Shown: positions 20,770 through 30,179 of the stretch, piece after piece
How the letters are laid out: every line of letters starts with the position of its first letter
How positions within the stretch are numbered: the first letter of the stretch is position 1
Origin: Triparma columacea
Lineage: Eukaryota; Sar; Bolidophyceae; Parmales; Triparmaceae
DNA length: 50,051 nucleotides
Assembly (NCBI GenBank): GCA_030267965.1
Contig: BRYA01000188.1
Coordinates: forward strand, 1 to 50,051
Direction of reading: 5' to 3'
Program-made: the position numbers and the translations under genes
The notes under the pieces: model-generated
What the model was told of the DNA's origin: nothing
Databases searched by the model: none
What the model saw: only the letters and a program-made list of their open reading frames with translations

Positions 20770-22840
20770 CTACTCAAGCGTTGTGCTATTCCCGACCGCA
20801 GTCGCGTTGTTGCTCGCTTCCAGATCCCACCGCATCAGCGGGTCCATTCCTAGATGCTTGAGAAGGAAGGCGACAGGCAGAATCGAGACTCCTATGCCCA
20901 AGAGAAGCGCCGGTACGAACAAGTTCATCCTCTGGAAGTACATGACGCCGACGCCATAGACGTTGACGTTTGTCAGAATCATGAAGACAACCAGCATGGC
21001 ACAGAAGGTCAACATCTCAAGGCCGAAGTCGATGGCGCTGAAACGAAGCGCCCTGTGGAACCCCTCGTCGTCGAGGTCCACGATAGTGTACAGGTATTCT
21101 TTGTTAGGACACCAGTACAGGATGGGGAGCATCATCATCATCCAGGCCGACGACACCATCTCGCTCAACTCGCTCGCCAAATATGAGAGCAAAAGCCGCA
21201 CGGCGCGGTGCAGGTGGAGATTCTCCGCGCCAATAGCTTCCAAGGAGGTCGGGTCCATGGTCCTCTCGCGCCTGGTGCGCAGCAAAGGGCTGGACATCGT
21301 CGGGGGTTCGTCCTGCTGCAAGAAGCGGCCTCCCTTCATCTTGGAGATCCCCTCCGCCATCTCCGGCAGTTCCGACCCCTCCTCCAACTCCAATCTCTCG
21401 TCAAAGGCCGGGAGTTGTCGCCCTTCCTCGAGCCTCTTGAGTCTCTCGTTGATCTGCTCGTACTGAGTGTGGAGTCCCTCGAGCAGCTTGGTCTTCTGAG
21501 CATTATCCCAATCTAGGCGCTCGTCGTGCCGATCCAGGCGATGCCGCAGGTCGGCAATCTCGATGTCCTTCTGGGTCTGGATCCTGATCACGGAGTCCTT
21601 GAGCGACGACTGGACGATGCCAACCACCCGTAGCGCAATGAAGATGTTCTCCATGATGTCTACTGAAATCATGGCGAACACGCTGGAGACGTCAGTTGCC
21701 GAAATGAAGAGGAAGTTGCCGCACATTCCAGCGACGGCATCGAAAGTCATTAGCATGAAAGGGGAGGCGTCCGGGTTCTTGCCCATCTCGACCAGCTTTG
21801 CGGCTAACTGCTTCAGGCCCAGCTTCATGATCGGCCACACAGGGCCGAAGGCGGCCTGCTGACCGGTAGTCATCTGCATAAAAGCTGATCGGTAGAAACA
21901 GAACCCCACCATGAAGACGGCGGGAAGTAGCCCTACCCCAATGAGAGGGAGGAGAGGGAAAAGAACCTGCTTGGTGAAGAAAGTCCTTCCGAAGATGTCG
22001 TGGAAGAGAGCGAGGCAAGCCGAGGGCGCAGCGATTACCGTCACGATCAGGAGCCCGAAGGGAATTGGGAACCGCCAGGACTCTCCCAAGATCCAGTAAC
22101 CCGCGATGAATGTGCCCGCATAAACGGCCGTGAATTTGAGGACCCCCCTGGTAGTTGGAGGGACGCTCACTGCCACACACAAGAGGAGCCCAATCCCGGG
22201 GACTGAAAGACAGGCAAGGAGGGCGAAACCGGGCAGAAAGTGCGACCCGATGATGCCGTGGTCCGGAGAAGCAAACCTGCACAAGCGAAGCGAGCGCAAA
22301 AGACGAGACGAGTAAGTAGGAAGCGCATTAAGCTCGTTCTTGAAGCCGAACAACAGGGGGCAGACAAGTGACGAAAGGGTTGGTGACGATGCACCTTCGC
22401 TCGCGCCCCACTTCATTAACTTACGGGTAGAACCCCCAAATGAGGCTGCTGAGCATGGGCGGGACTAGCAGTATCGCCAGGAAGCACTGCGCTACCTTCA
22501 AGGTCCCTACCTCGGACTCTTCCTCACCGAGTGCGATCTCGACGAGATAGTCTCCAGTAGCCCTGCTCAGGCAGCCCTTGGGCACGATCTCGCCTTCCTC
22601 AATCAACCTGGCCGCTCCACTCTTAGATTTTACTACTCGCAGCTGTGCGGTCGACTGCATGCGCTCATGTACGGAGTTCGCCATCAAATGGTCCAGAGAG
22701 CGTCTTCTGTTGTTACTCGCAGTTGGAGCAGCGGGACCTCTTGCTGGCTCGAGACCGACACGGGCTCTATTGCCGCGCCCGGTCGAACGGGCGCTCAAAC
22801 CCACCTGCCCGGCCCACCCAGCATCACGCCCAGACATCAT
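20770..22840 (-). CDS. Unrecognised multi-pass membrane protein with coiled coil
   Basis: Two exons, 22840-22425 and 22276-20770, join across a 148 bp intron (GTAAGT donor, TTGTGCAG acceptor) to give 640 residues. The split codon becomes CCG and the frame continues YPFASPDHG. The N-terminal ~100 residues are basic and soluble. A hydrophobic helix (LKVAQCFLAILLVPP) sits at the end of exon 1, followed by several helices (GFALLACLSVPG, FTAVYAGTFIAGYWILG, LLPLIGVGLLPAVFMVG). A cytoplasmic-type coiled coil follows (ADLRHRLDRHDERL...QYEQINERLKRLEEG), then four more helices near the C-terminus. No pore, transporter or enzyme motif stands out. G+C is higher than in most neighbours. The frame from 22416 alone has an apparent start that is really intronic. 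Function unknown. Confidence 0.75.
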
Positions 22841-23433
22841 GGTGACCTCAGCAGGTCAACCAGGGAGAGATGTCCGAGGTCGGGGACAGGGGGTGGGGGT
22901 TGGATAGGTGTTGAAAGGCTCTGGGGAGACGGGGGGGGGAGATGGAGGAGGGGAAGGAGCAGTTTCGGAGGGGTTGAGAAGCAGTCGTGGGGTTAGGGGT
23001 TGGAGGCGTTCGTAAAAAGATGGGAGAGGCCAAAGTTGGTTGTTTTAACTTGGTTGGTTTTCTAAATTAATTGGGTTCTTGGGTTCTGGAATGTTATTTA
23101 TTTCAGATATATTGGCCAGATGGGATTTGGCTCTGGATTTGGGGTGATCCTCAATCGGTTGAGGGTTGACGCAAAAGCGTGTGGCGCAACCGCAGCGTCT
23201 GGACTCACTTTTTTCAATGAAATGAAAAGTGCCAACTGGTTCTCCCTTAGATTAAAAGCGAAGGGCCTTACTTAAAAGAAAGAAAATAGACAGGGCCAGG
23301 GCCAGGGCCTTGATTGTCGTCATTTTTTTTTATTGAAGGTGCTGTTATTTGGATCATTACTCTAAATTTGACATGAAGATGTTAGGGTTGCAAGATATCT
23401 AAATAAAAATTCTCCTCCCTTCCCCCCTTTCCC
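22841..23433. other. Intergenic region
   Basis: Between the start of one minus-strand gene and the stop of the next. The right part near 23090-23430 is AT-rich and probably holds the 3' end of the DGAT2-PDE gene. The left part, with G runs around 22930-22940, should hold the promoter of the membrane-protein gene. No gene or RNA was recognised. Confidence 0.4.
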
Positions 23434-26400
23434 CTAATCCCATATGCTCTTCTTTTTCAATTCGGGGGATCCCACCCCTGGAATGACGAAGTCAATCTCG
23501 TTCTCCCCCTTTTCGCCACCTGTGCTGATCAGGTCGGGCACCTTCTCTGCATCAATAACATCATGGTCAGGAACGTCCTTAACGCTGTCCTTCCTAACTT
23601 TCGTCACCGCGAACAGTAAATTAGTAACGGATGACTTTCTTCGTAAGGTTGTTGCTCTGCGGCTATCTTTGCCGTATTTCTCGACCGTGTCCAAGTGCTC
23701 CTTCCATCTCTTTCGGTTCGTATCCAGACGTTGCACACAGTACTCGTTAACTAGAGGTAGAAAGTCGGCAAGCGCGTGGAATGCTGGAGCAACGACGTAG
23801 TCAATGAATCTTAGCTCCATGAGAGCTGTGTTGGCATCCCCACGGTCCATGAACGTAGAGACCTTAAGTCCGAGCTGCTTCTCCTTATCACCCTGCATCA
23901 AGAACTCCTTCTCAACGGCACAAGCCCAGTATGTTGCAATATTCTGAGGACGAACAGGATTCGAGACGTCAGCGATATGAAGTAGAGTGGTAACCAACTC
24001 TTCTGATGTAAGCGTGTGCTTCTCCAGGCGGTCAGTGAAGTTGGAGATGACGTCGTAATGCCTCAAAGGATCTGTTTCCAAGATCATGCGAACCATCCTG
24101 TCACGGGCGTCTGAGCGTTCAGCTGCTGAGAGATTTTCGAGCAAATTGCACCCCGGCTTTTCCAAGATCCTACGAGTGTAATTGTTTATGAATGGGTTAC
24201 GTATGTGATGAGTGAGAACTGCGTTGCTGCTTGATGATCGCCTTCGTCCATCCCCGCACAGTGCTTGGCTCTACTTACCTGAAGAGCATCGATGCACTGT
24301 TCATCTCTTGAACCGAATAACCAGCGTAGGTCTTAGCCCTGTCTGACATGATCTTTTTGTGGAAATCATTATTGAAGCCGTCGTGACCAATGTCATGGGC
24401 AAGGGCGGTTATGAGCAAGCACAGTTCGTCTAACTTGCTCAAGTACTTGCCTGCATGACAACTTGTGATAAGCAGGTAAGATACGTGCATCACGTCAAAG
24501 GCGTGATACTTGTTGTGGTAGGACGAGTCCGTGTAGCCTTCGACGACCTCCTCTGCAAACGTAAGTAGCTTCTCCTCGCTGATACCGAACGCCTCGAGCA
24601 GACCACGATCCTTGAACATGTCGACCGTGGCCTTGTAGAGCTCGTCGTCAGTGTGATGATGAACGTCATAATACCAGGTTTGCAGATACTCCGCGTCAAC
24701 CGCGCCAGTATCTTCAACGGTTTTCTTCTCATTGGCCAGCTTGTCGTTGCGAGCGGAATCGCGTGTCTTTGAAAGCTTCGAGTCGAATGCGAAGTCTCTT
24801 CTCGCGTCCAGGGCGCCAACGAAAAGCATGAAGAGACAGCTTGCTAGCATCGACAATCCAATTATGCCGTCAAGCACATCGGTGAGTGCTATCACCAGCA
24901 TGAGTAACCCAAACTTTAAAATCTTGATGTTGCAACTCACGACAAGTGTCTTGACGCTCCATGTGCGAGTCTCCGAGAGGGTTTGTGGGCAGGTTCGATT
25001 GTCCTTGCTGACCCCCTTTGTCTTGGTCTTGGTGGCGTTGCGCTGGCTCGCAATAATCTGCCCAACTTGCCAGAGAATCTGTGTGAGGCACGCAAGGCTG
25101 AAGCTTGTGTCAGTGCTCCAAAACGCGGCACCTAACCAGCGAAAAAAGGCAGCTGAGAAGCGTGGGACGAGGGATACAGCAAGGTTCATGAAGAGAATCG
25201 TCATGACCTTACTGTGCTCGGCACGCTTCTTGTAAATATAGATGCTAGAAATGCCGTACGAAACCAAGTAGAGAGTTATGTACGCGATCTGGAAATTACA
25301 AATGGTATGAAAGCTCTTGTTGATGACGTTCCAGCTTGCCTTGTGCTCGAAAAGAGACTGGCAGCTCAGGCTTACAGCACTCCAGGACATGACAGCGGAA
25401 GCGATAATGGCCACGGTGCCAATCTTCCGATGCCAGCGTGCAATTTTCCTGAAAGGTGTTGTAACCAAAATCGTACTCAGCACAGCCCACACCGCACACG
25501 AGGTGAGGTGGACGTAGAGGAACGTCAATTTCTCAGTAGCAGCAACGGACTCCTCCGCTTTCTCGTACGCCTCCCAAGTTGAGAAGCTCCACCATGTCCC
25601 TCTAGTGACTAAGTACGTGCCAAGAACCAAGCCTAAGAAAACCAGGCCCACAAGTCCTGCAATCTTGGAACTGAGTTTCTTCGCCCTTGCGGCTTTATCT
25701 GCTTTCAGTCTCTTGGCAGCGTTGGCAGCGTCTTCGGCAGATTCTCTTTTAGCTGCTGGTTTCTTCTCCTGGCCCTTTGGTGCATGCTCGATCCACTTCA
25801 ACTTCCTGTTGGCGTACCTCTTTCCACCAACTGACACCTTGTACTTCTCAAAGAGCTCCTCCAAGATGTCAAAGTAAAAGTGCTCAAGGTCTGAGTCACT
25901 GCGGAACTCGTGGGTGTCAATGTCTGGACCTACGACACCTATGACTCCGCTATCTGCAGAGTACTTGAGGTTTGGAAGCCACAGAGGGATGCTGCGCGAA
26001 GGGTTACAAGCGTGCCGAGGCGAGAAGGCGTGAGGACGCGTGCTCCCTTCAATCAGTTTTCTTATCCGAATTTCTCTCACCTTGCACCCGTCTTCTTGTA
26101 CATGGCCATGTCGAACTTTCCAAAAACGCTAACGTGCGAATCGTTCATGCCGAACCAAAAGGTTGGAACGACAACGGCGCCATTGGCCCTCGCTAGCCTT
26201 AAGAAGCCCGCGTGCTTCACCATGCAAATGTCGTTGGAGTCCGGCTCGCACACGATCATCTCCCGGGCCCCTCCTGGAAAGAGGGCGATGTCGTTGTGTT
26301 TCAACAGCTCGCGCTCGATGGCCTTCCTTGTGACGTCGACGACGTTACCGGCGAACCATGTAGTCCAACCAACGGTAGGAACCCACTTCCCTAGGGACGA

Positions 26401-27609
26401 CTGGGCCACCTTGAGGTTGGGAAGCTTGTCCGTGCTGGAGAGGATGCCCGGGAAGATATTCATGGGATACTTGTTGTGCGGGTGTAGCCCGTAAACCCTT
26501 GGTATGTGATCCCCGAGGCTCACGGCATCTCTTGATCCCTCCATGGGAGGTGGGACGAGAATCTGAATATTCTTGTCCTTGGCGATCCTGTTCCAGATCT
26601 TGGGAGAACGCAGGAGCTTATGAAGTCCAGACGTGACACTCCTTGGTGCAAGAGCGGGGAAGAAATATATCGCAAACCACACTGGACGCATGCTCAGAGG
26701 GCTCTTGATAAGGGCGAACATAAGGAACCACGTCAGGTGGGGAATAATATGATCGAAGAGTACTGTGATGATACTGCGATGGAAGCAAAGAGGGTTGCAT
26801 GTATGGATTAGAATTATTGTGGAGATGGTATATTGTCAATTGCGCGCGTGACGACACTACTTCGGTTTACTTCCCAAGTCTCACCTCCAACTTCGCGCGG
26901 CTGGAACATCGTCAAGGGAAACTGTGTCCGTTACCCAATTCAGACCGTCGTCGTAATCACCTTCCTCGTCGCTGCTCGTCTCGTCGGAGGATACTTCTTC
27001 AAGTGATCCTTCTCCAAGTGTTTGGAATGAAACCCTACGACTGCCAGTGGATGCACCGTCCTTCTGAGCCTGGAGAAATTTCGCCAAGTTGCCTCCCCCC
27101 ATTAAGTCGCCTTTCACTTGTGGTGATTGAACGGCACTCATGGCACTCATGCGGCGGTTAGGCATGGTTTTTGATTTCTGCAGCAGTTCTCCGTCACCGT
27201 GACCGTGAAGAGCACCAAGTTTCGCGAGATCGAACTGCAGTGCGCGAAACGAATCGGGAGATGGTTAATTTCTTTAGTACGGGGCACAGACTAGTACGGG
27301 GCAAAGACTAGTACGGGGCAAAGACTAGTACGGGGCAAAGACTAGTACGGGGGAAAGACTGCCATTCCGACCTGTTTCATTCTTCCTCACCTGCTCTCGA
27401 GCAAGGGTGGAGAAACGCCTTGGCCCTTTAGACATCTTGCGGAAATTCTTCTCAGCAGTCGTCATGCGGTCGCTGATTGTGTCTACGTCATGCGTGAGGA
27501 GGTCGTAAACGTTTGAGGGAGTTTCAAAAAGGGGGTCGCTCTCATGGTCTGCATTGTTGCCCCAAACTAAGGAATCATACTCGACACTGTGCTTCTTTTT
27601 AACGGACAT
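23434..27609 (-). CDS. DGAT2-type acyltransferase / membrane domain / cyclic-nucleotide phosphodiesterase fusion
   Basis: Exons 27609-27391, 27234-26885, 26773-26081, 25991-24279 and 24169-23434 total 3711 nt, giving 1236 residues in one frame with GT/AG at every junction. Residues about 195-490 are a DGAT2/MGAT acyltransferase: GLHPHNKYP near 285, IALFPGGAREMIV, KHAGFLRLA, VPTFWFG, and after the 26080-25992 intron GVVGPDIDTHEF plus the usual tail LEELFEKYKVSVGGKR. About 560-800 hold six to eight helices with VHLTSCAVW, WHRKIGTVA and EHSKVMTI, resembling DUF2306. The C-terminus is a class I PDE: YHNKYHAFDVMH, ALAHDIGHDGFNND, SASMLFRILEKPG, LLHIADVSNP and MDRGD. The HPHG motif is HPHN, and the usually invariant nucleotide-binding Gln before F-I-D appears as Glu (MELRFID). 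It is expected in a membrane, linking glycerolipid acylation to cyclic-nucleotide breakdown (inference). Transcript evidence is needed to exclude two overlapping genes. Confidence 0.8.
27275..27359. repeat. 17 bp tandem repeat, five copies
   Basis: The unit TAGTACGGGGCAAAGAC is repeated five times; the first copy has one change (CACAGAC) and the last has GGGGGAAAG. It fills much of the first intron (27390-27235) of the DGAT2-PDE fusion gene, close to its donor site. Confidence 0.95.
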
Positions 27610-27792
27610 CCTGCGGCTGTACCTCCGACCATGGTTAGCGGACTGGTTTGAGCGGGGTTAGAAATAAATAGAAGGCCCCGCTGAATTGTTAATTAGGATT
27701 TCTGTTCTGGTCGTGGAAAATAGATATCATTCTGTTTGTTTGTGGGAAGGGAGAGATGAATACGGGATGAATATGTCCGCGACGTTGATTGA
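27610..27792. promoter_or_regulatory. Short divergent promoter region
   Basis: 183 bp separate the start codons of the minus-strand fusion gene (27609) and the plus-strand small gene (27793). The stretch GAAATAAATAGAAGG near 27661 and TTAATTAGG near 27690 are AT-rich. Both promoters must share this interval. No defined motif was assigned. Confidence 0.4.
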
Positions 27793-28107
27793 ATGGCCTC
27801 GACGTACCATTACTTGTCTGTAAGTGACGAAATGTCAACAGTCACAGTGGGAATCAAAGGCAGAGTGAAGAAGAAGGTGCGACGAACATTCCAACAGAAG
27901 TTAGTTCATCACTCATTCATTCATTTGGAAAAACATGGCAAAACTGCAACCACGTTCAAAAATTATCATCAGTTTTTGTCTATGCTTGCTGAAGCTACTG
28001 TAAAAAAGGAAGTGGCTCACTTCGAACGAGAGGGTTGCGCAATCCGACGAGCGCACGTAAATATAAAGAAGCCCCATATTATCCCATCTCCAACAGGCAG
28101 TTCTTAG
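27793..28107 (+). CDS. Small protein of unknown function, possibly histone-fold
   Basis: Single-exon frame of 104 residues. The N-terminal third is basic (GRVKKKVRRTFQQK). Three helix-like segments follow: LVHHSFIHLEKHG, FKNYHQFLSMLAEATVKKEV and the ending FEREGCAIRRAHVNIK. The I-R-x-x-H-V pattern after a long amphipathic helix resembles small histone-fold proteins such as CENP-W, but the match is weak and I do not assign it. It ends about 50 bp from the stop of the convergent ATP synthase gene. The ATG follows a short divergent promoter. Confidence 0.5.
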   Translation: MASTYHYLSVSDEMSTVTVGIKGRVKKKVRRTFQQKLVHHSFIHLEKHGKTATTFKNYHQFLSMLAEATVKKEVAHFEREGCAIRRAHVNIKKPHIIPSPTGSS

Positions 28108-29198: not shown

Positions 29199-30179
29199 AT
29201 GTCATCATCCTCAGCATCCTCCTCCTCGTCATCTTCATCTTCATCTTCCTCCTCCTCCTCTGCATCTGCCTCCACCACCCCCACCCCAAAGCCCCCCGTG
29301 CCAATCATTATCGCTACCCCCGCCGAAGAGGCTCCAGAAGAGACCGAAGCGGCAGAAGCTAGTGGAGAGACGACGGAAGAGATGAACTTTGTAAAGAAGG
29401 CTCGCAAGCGCAAGAGGAAGAAGAAAGGCTCCGATTCCGCTGACGCCGACGCCCCAACGGTAAACCTCTCCAACCTCCCCGCCACTGTCCCTGACTCTGC
29501 CAAGAACCTTCTCACGGAAGTCTCCCGAACCTGCTACATTGAGGGCCTACCCTTCTCCACGACCCCCGCATCAGTGACAGCCTTCATCACCTCGCACTCC
29601 CTCACCGTAGAGTCCCTCCGCCTACCAACCTGGCAGGACACCGGTCGGCTCCGCGGTTTCGGCCACGTCGTCTTCCCCGACTCCTCCACTGCCGCCAAGG
29701 CTGTCGAGGTCCTCGACAGGGTCCAGTACCCGCAGTCAACAAGGTACATCAGGATATCCATGTCCAAGCCCCCAAAGTCCGTGCAGGCCAGGGACCCCGG
29801 CGAGCAGCCCGAGGGTTGCAGGACAGTCTTCGTCAGGAACTTGCCATACGATTACAAGACTGAGTCCCTCCGTAATCTGATGTCGCAGTTTGGCAAGGTT
29901 GAGGATAACGGTGTCAGGATACCTTTGATGCTCGACGGTAGCGGGAGGAACAAGGGCTTCGGTTACGTGACGTTCAAGAACGCCGAGGGTGCAGCGGGCG
30001 CGGTAGGGAAGGCTAAGAAGGCTTACGGGCTATGCGAGGAGGGGGGAAGGCCACTGGTCGTGGGATGGGAGGAAGGGGGGAGGGTCAAGGGGAGCTTTAA
30101 GACGGAGGAGGGAAGGAACTGGGCTAAGGTGGAAGGGGGGAAGGGGAAGAAAGGAAGGAAGGAGGGGCCTAAGCTGTAA
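29199..30179 (+). CDS. Two-RRM RNA-binding protein (nucleolin/Nop12-like)
   Basis: 326 residues, single exon, starting at ATG 29199 within AAACAATG. A long serine run and an acidic stretch (EEAPEETEAAEASGE) precede a basic patch KKARKRKRKKKG, a likely nuclear or nucleolar signal. RRM1 has RNP2 CYIEGLPF and RNP1 LRGFGHVVF. RRM2 has RNP2 TVFVRNLPY and RNP1 NKGFGYVTF. The C-terminus is Gly/Lys-rich (KGKKGRKEG). The order Ser/acidic region, basic patch, two RRMs, basic tail is that of nucleolin-like and Nop12-like ribosome-biogenesis factors. The exact orthologue cannot be fixed by eye. It ends 70 bp from the convergent ankyrin gene. Confidence 0.8.
   Translation: MSSSSASSSSSSSSSSSSSSSASASTTPTPKPPVPIIIATPAEEAPEETEAAEASGETTEEMNFVKKARKRKRKKKGSDSADADAPTVNLSNLPATVPDSAKNLLTEVSRTCYIEGLPFSTTPASVTAFITSHSLTVESLRLPTWQDTGRLRGFGHVVFPDSSTAAKAVEVLDRVQYPQSTRYIRISMSKPPKSVQARDPGEQPEGCRTVFVRNLPYDYKTESLRNLMSQFGKVEDNGVRIPLMLDGSGRNKGFGYVTFKNAEGAAGAVGKAKKAYGLCEEGGRPLVVGWEEGGRVKGSFKTEEGRNWAKVEGGKGKKGRKEGPKL

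Follow-up and report, generated by a model that had tools for sequence, protein, structure and literature searches.

Can one protein chain carry both an enzyme that builds fat and an enzyme that destroys a cyclic-nucleotide messenger? This question is raised by a gene of Triparma columacea, a tiny marine alga related to diatoms. The gene lies on the minus strand of a 50,051-nucleotide stretch of genomic DNA (contig BRYA01000188.1, positions 1 to 50,051), which we refer to as the window. A preliminary description, made from the letters of the window, had joined five exons between 27609 and 23434 into one 1236-residue protein with a DGAT2-type acyltransferase domain, a DUF2306-like multi-helix region, and a class I cyclic-nucleotide phosphodiesterase (PDE). 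Our analysis confirmed that, at the sequence level, the acyltransferase-membrane-PDE fusion is real. The identical domain order occurs in two named species, T. retinervis and Tetraparma gracilis (T. gracilis), and a further protein is 98% identical over the joining exon, so a chance origin is not credible. As to function, we consider it rather probable that the product is a kinase-regulated membrane protein whose single chain combines a divergent acyltransferase of DGAT2 type, a multi-helix domain, and its own class I PDE.

The five exons do join in one frame. Their introns are flanked by GT donors and AG acceptors, and splicing gives 1236 codons and a stop, with no internal stop. However, the 5' end had to be revised. 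The T. retinervis homologue (P0001; TrRE_jg952) starts with MSANLGRRYSRRKS, twelve residues upstream of the ATG at 27609 that had been taken as the start. Residues 2 to 86 of P0001 align to window positions 27642-27388 with 74% identity, and the alignment extends past that ATG. The region at 27642 codes for SANHGRRYSRRMS and is preceded by an acceptor ending at 27643, and farther upstream there is an ATG followed by GTACGT (ATG at 27810-27808). Because of this homology, the acceptor, and the upstream ATG, the gene is likely to span 27810-23434, with six exons and 1248 residues, one start exon having been missed.

All six exons are on the minus strand. The predicted exon 1 (27808-27810) holds only the start codon, with a GTACGT donor, and would restore the M-S-A-N start of P0001. 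Exon 2 (27391-27642, drawn earlier as 27391-27609) has a CAG acceptor and a GTGAGG donor and encodes a basic N-terminal tail with RRYS, RRMS, DPLF..VYDLL, and RRFSTL. The intron that follows (27390-27235) contains a 17-bp tandem repeat in 5.1 near-perfect copies (27275-27360). Exon 3 (26885-27234) encodes the rest of the N-terminal tail, which is of low conservation and has two further RRx[ST] sites. Exon 4 (26081-26773) encodes a hydrophobic segment and the acyltransferase core and is 91% identical to P0001. Exon 5, the joining exon (24279-25991), encodes the acyltransferase C terminus, a linker, the helices, and the first third of the PDE, and is 77% identical to P0001. Exon 6 (23434-24169) encodes the remainder of the PDE and a C-terminal tail with RRATT and RRKSS.

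The link between the domains rests on exon 5, as the preliminary description had recognized. Its 1713 bases lie in a single open frame of 617 codons, unbroken from the C-terminal blocks of the acyltransferase through the helices to the HNxxH motif of the PDE. By codon usage, the coding frame scored best in 24 of 27 blocks of 40 codons each, and a reverse frame scored slightly higher in the other 3. The score was trained on three other gene stretches of the same genome (2177 codons), two of which are paralogous to parts of the fusion protein, so the training set is not fully independent.

The catalytic domains

The acyltransferase domain scores above the cut-off of Pfam DAGAT (PF03982), with 44.6 bits versus 22 and an E value of 1.2e-11, for a match at residues 283-402 in the numbering of the 1236-residue version. 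The match covers only profile positions 66-193 of 297, and P0001 and two relatives described below, P0003 and P0006, match roughly the same stretch. The active-site motif of DGAT2 is HPHG, or EPHS in plants. The fusion carries HPHN (from 26484), FPGGAREM (PGGARE from 26277), and FGMND (from 26154). HPHN is also found in P0001, HPHS in a paralogue on contig C463 of the same genome, and HPHG in P0003, P0005, and P0006. The fusion thus resembles the DGAT2/DAGAT family in scoring above the Pfam cut-off, in keeping PGGxxE, and in having a hydrophobic N-terminal segment. It differs in its HPHN, its partial profile match, its long RRx[ST]-rich tail, and the helices and PDE that lie downstream. A structure model of P0003 (mean pLDDT 46.8) had PlsC (5kym) as its top Foldseek match, with a probability of 1.00 but an E value of 0.02. 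The DGAT2-type label seems fair, yet HPHN and the partial profile match mark the domain as divergent.

The PDE domain is a member of PDEase_I (PF00233), as the preliminary description had held. It matches nearly the complete profile (positions 1-234 of 238) at residues 912-1135 of the 1236-residue version (E 5.6e-65; 219.8 bits). These correspond to residues 924-1147 of 1248, encoded at 23740-24520 on the minus strand and split by the intron 24278-24170. All five metal and catalytic residues that we checked are intact: H925, H929, H965, D966, and D1071 (HNxxH, HD, and D). The best solved relatives are PDE9A chains (E 1.6e-45). However, in alignment with PDE9A, the Gln of the purine pocket is replaced by Glu1122 (23817-23815, minus strand), and we did not assign the domain to a PDE9-like subgroup. 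The fusion further differs from PDE9A in having acyltransferase and membrane domains N-terminal to the PDE. The pocket Glu is shared by P0001 and by P0012, a PDE sequence described below, and T. gracilis has Gln. Eleven PDE copies in the T. columacea genome are readable at this position: eight have Gln, two have Glu (the fusion and C426), and one has Ser (C189). The twelfth, C97, is unreadable there.

The alternative that survives best, possible but in our estimate somewhat unlikely, is a true fusion with one non-catalytic half. Either the acyltransferase would only anchor the protein or sense lipid while the PDE works, or the PDE would only bind nucleotide and regulate the acyltransferase. 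HPHN in place of HPHG and Glu in place of the PDE9A Gln would fit such a loss. However, the acyltransferase retains PGGxxE and both motif histidines, and its core is the most conserved part of the protein when the window protein is compared with that of T. retinervis (two 100-column blocks with 97 and 91 identical columns). In addition, the five PDE residues are intact, and T. gracilis retains the Gln. We continue to favor the kinase-regulated protein with its own class I PDE.

The membrane domain

The membrane region (24809-25663, minus strand) was delimited from hydropathy and an alignment of seven sequences. Fifteen of its columns are invariant across the seven, including W, P, and R residues, among them P709-R710. 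Four of the fifteen are histidines: His594 (25510-25508), His620 (25432-25430), His661 (25309-25307), and His692 (25216-25214), spaced by 26, 41, and 31 residues in the window protein. Four hydrophobic segments follow one another, each with one of these histidines at or close to its start, and therefore neighboring histidines should sit on opposite faces of the membrane. Three of the four segments pass the hydropathy threshold in the window protein; the segment after His661 passes it only in P0001 and some relatives. In a low-confidence model of exon 5, there are eight long helices between the acyltransferase and the PDE, when residues 256-286 are counted as one. With eight helices between them, both catalytic domains would be on the same face of the membrane.

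The DUF2306-like label was not supported by profile score. The DUF2306 profile (PF10067) matched the window protein at an E value of 0.94 and 10.1 bits, versus a cut-off of 31.6, and the membrane part alone reached 14.2 bits. Four of seven relatives matched the profile at E ≤ 10 (best E 0.0014), and a search of the T. columacea genome with it gave no match at E ≤ 0.1. In PDB profile searches, the membrane domain had no match up to E 10, and the two-part acyltransferase-membrane profile had two chance-level matches only. Fold comparisons returned unspecific helical matches from low-confidence models. No relative was found in the prokaryote genomes scanned with the membrane-domain alignment or in the viral contigs scanned with P0001.

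Dihaem cytochromes b561 carry four haem-ligand histidines on four helices in an alternating layout. The protein may be mainly a redox enzyme, with a membrane domain that holds two haems as in cytochrome b561 and attached domains that respond to redox state. We judge this unlikely. It agrees with the four histidines, invariant in seven sequences and predicted to lie on alternating sides. It also agrees with a fungal DUF2306 protein that is needed for an epoxidation and that its authors call the first of its kind with an assigned function (PMC12895699). However, the PDB search was empty, the fold matches do not discriminate and come from poor models, and the window protein scores below the DUF2306 cut-off. 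A broader version is more doubtful still. In it, a neutral-lipid acyltransferase would be combined, in a single-chain machine of a new kind, with a dihaem membrane domain that senses redox state, a PDE, and tails phosphorylated by a cyclic-nucleotide-dependent kinase. Local lipid synthesis would then depend on redox state and cyclic-nucleotide level together, and the enzyme would end its own signal.

Relatives and origin of the fusion

We ran three protein searches, in which 7997, 7995, and 7988 candidates were scored. The first returned seven proteins (P0001 to P0007), and the third also returned seven, including P0011. P0001 has 1238 residues, is 81% identical over the searched region, and has the same domain order. 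P0002 (TeGR_g3547 of T. gracilis) is a partial protein of 837 residues, 50% identical, with both Pfam domains and helices between them. According to the Parmales genome paper, RNA-seq hints were used in predicting the genes of T. retinervis but not those of T. gracilis (PMC10328945). The preliminary description had named separate orthologous genes in every relative as evidence that would speak against a fusion; what we found was a single predicted protein in T. retinervis and a partial one in T. gracilis. P0011 (from ENA; a cluster of 9 member sequences) has 605 residues and matches 79% of the query with 98% identity. It corresponds to the open frame of exon 5 in a close relative, with the reading begun inside the upstream intron, and a 4-residue insert in its linker keeps the frame.

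Other relatives lack the PDE. P0003 (T. strigata), P0005 (T. laevis f. longispina), and P0006 have an acyltransferase and the same membrane domain. P0006 is named as an MMETSP transcript product, so its acyltransferase-membrane join lies on one mRNA. A two-part paralogue, with three exons and 751 residues, is encoded in the T. columacea genome itself, on contig C463. An open frame after this paralogue, on the opposite strand, resembles superoxide dismutase by eye. The two-part Parmales proteins TrST_g14312, TrLO_g1644, and C463 share with the fusion the acyltransferase, the four-histidine membrane domain, and a similar N-terminal motif. They differ in that they stop after the membrane domain and have two RRx[ST] sites each. 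P0004 and P0007 are PDEs of different architecture.

In a tree of the acyltransferase-membrane part (7 rows), the three fusions form one clade, with support of 100/100. In a PDE tree (20 rows), the fusion PDEs cluster with P0011 and P0012, with support of 87/87 when T. gracilis is included and 100/98 when it is left out. P0012 (410 residues) thus falls in the fusion PDE clade, but its 1670-base contig is too short to show a fusion. The fusion PDEs, P0004, and C449 form a clade at 100/99, and both P0004 and C449 are GAF-PDE proteins. The C449 PDE is the nearest to the fusion in the T. columacea genome (44 to 47% identical); it differs from the fusion in its N-terminal GAF domain, its pocket Gln, and a cyclase domain downstream. 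On contig C449 (L051 4091-8434), the next open frame after that of the GAF-PDE encodes a guanylate/adenylate cyclase domain. The pair is possibly one protein that both makes and destroys a cyclic nucleotide.

Since two-part proteins without a PDE exist and the fusion PDE groups with the GAF-PDE family, the PDE appears to be a later addition to an older two-part protein. A PDE of that family was probably joined to the acyltransferase-membrane protein before Tetraparma and Triparma split. A single fusion event is the simplest history, and the 87/87 branch allows a more complex one. That two adjacent genes, an acyltransferase and a membrane PDE, were wrongly joined, or that the assembly or gene model is in error, is very improbable: the window species is represented by genomic sequence only and PDE-less two-part relatives exist, but the join lies inside one exon, the 70-residue linker between acyltransferase and helices is 67% identical in T. 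retinervis, the same order recurs in T. gracilis, and the P0011 linker has an in-frame insert.

Basic tails and a proposed mechanism

The motif RRx[ST] is the consensus for cAMP- and cGMP-dependent kinases. The window protein has seven such sites, all outside the domains and clustered in both tails, a feature that the preliminary description had missed along with the PDE-less paralogue and the conserved histidines. When the tails were shuffled, the mean was 0.20 sites, and seven were reached in 0 of 5000 trials. P0001 also has seven sites, six of which align with those of the window protein, and 69 of the first 100 alignment columns of the N-terminal tail are identical between the two. The reversed motif is present at one place in the window protein and at two in the T. 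retinervis protein. We compared 42 other stop-to-stop frames, each 350 residues or longer, sampled from the T. columacea genome; none was as dense in RRx[ST]. The PDE-less relatives have few sites (P0003, 2; P0005, 2; P0006, 1; C463, 2). When the motif is relaxed to [RK][RK]x[ST], the window protein has 14 sites, P0001 has 11, P0003 has 6, P0005 has 7, P0006 has 3, and C463 has 2.

Candidate signaling partners are encoded in the same genome. A PKG-like kinase on contig C254 (L058 2075-4174) is a single 700-residue open frame with two cyclic-nucleotide-binding domains, and its top PDB match is cGMP-dependent protein kinase 1. We found 18 genomic matches to cyclase domains and 130 to cyclic-nucleotide-binding domains.

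We propose the following mechanism. Both catalytic domains would face the cytosol, with the eight long helices of the low-confidence model between them. A cGMP- or cAMP-dependent kinase would phosphorylate the RRx[ST] sites of both tails, and this may change the activity or the location of the acyltransferase, in either direction. The fused PDE would remove cyclic nucleotide at the same membrane spot, and the signal acting on lipid synthesis would therefore be local and self-ending. Anchoring proteins hold animal PDE4 in place; here, the fusion itself may keep the PDE where it is needed.

Several observations weigh against this proposal. The departures of HPHN and Glu1122 from the usual motif and the usual Gln could mean altered or lost acyltransferase or PDE activity. 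RRx[ST] is compatible with other basophilic kinases as well, and one 2479-residue open frame of the window carries eight sites, at a lower density. The T. gracilis protein, whose N terminus is missing, has a single site, at residue 560 and outside the tails. The looser motif is enriched over shuffles also in the PDE-less P0003 (p 0.0135) and P0005 (p 0.008), so basic phosphorylation motifs may not be exclusive to the PDE-bearing form. Finally, the protein searches returned PDE-less relatives from T. strigata and T. laevis f. longispina but no fused form from either. This absence is weak evidence, because the second search, with the acyltransferase-membrane alignment as query, did not return P0001, P0002, or P0006, which are true relatives of allowed length.

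Elsewhere in the window, positions 1-1000 begin with about 11 copies of ACACCCTTT, after which come repeats of 121 bp and 69 bp, and are nearly free of G for about 900 bases. This repeat-rich contig start could represent a satellite or a subtelomeric end. Downstream of the fusion gene and on the same strand (20773-22855, minus), there are open frames of 564 and 144 residues, neither of which matches Pfam at E ≤ 0.001; by eye, the longer of them contains hydrophobic stretches. Upstream, on the opposite strand (29202-30176, plus), an open frame has two RRM (RNA-binding) stretches.

Taken singly, the parts of the fusion are of familiar types. Their combination, which occurs in two genera, seems not to have been described in the literature searched: among the titles and abstract openings covered, we found no enzyme with an acyltransferase and a cyclic-nucleotide PDE in one protein. 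The Parmales genome paper describes Parmales as enriched in DGAT and cyclic nucleotide signaling domains, and its main text does not contain the word phosphodiesterase (PMC10328945). The coupling of oil synthesis to a second messenger, raised in the preliminary description, is plausible. How microalgae switch on oil storage could be addressed here with one protein, and the fusion would be a natural construct for studying compartmented cyclic-nucleotide signaling at a site of lipid synthesis. Because relatives keep the same join, lipid synthesis may be tied directly to signaling, and the conservation of the fusion points to a common site of action for both processes in Parmales.

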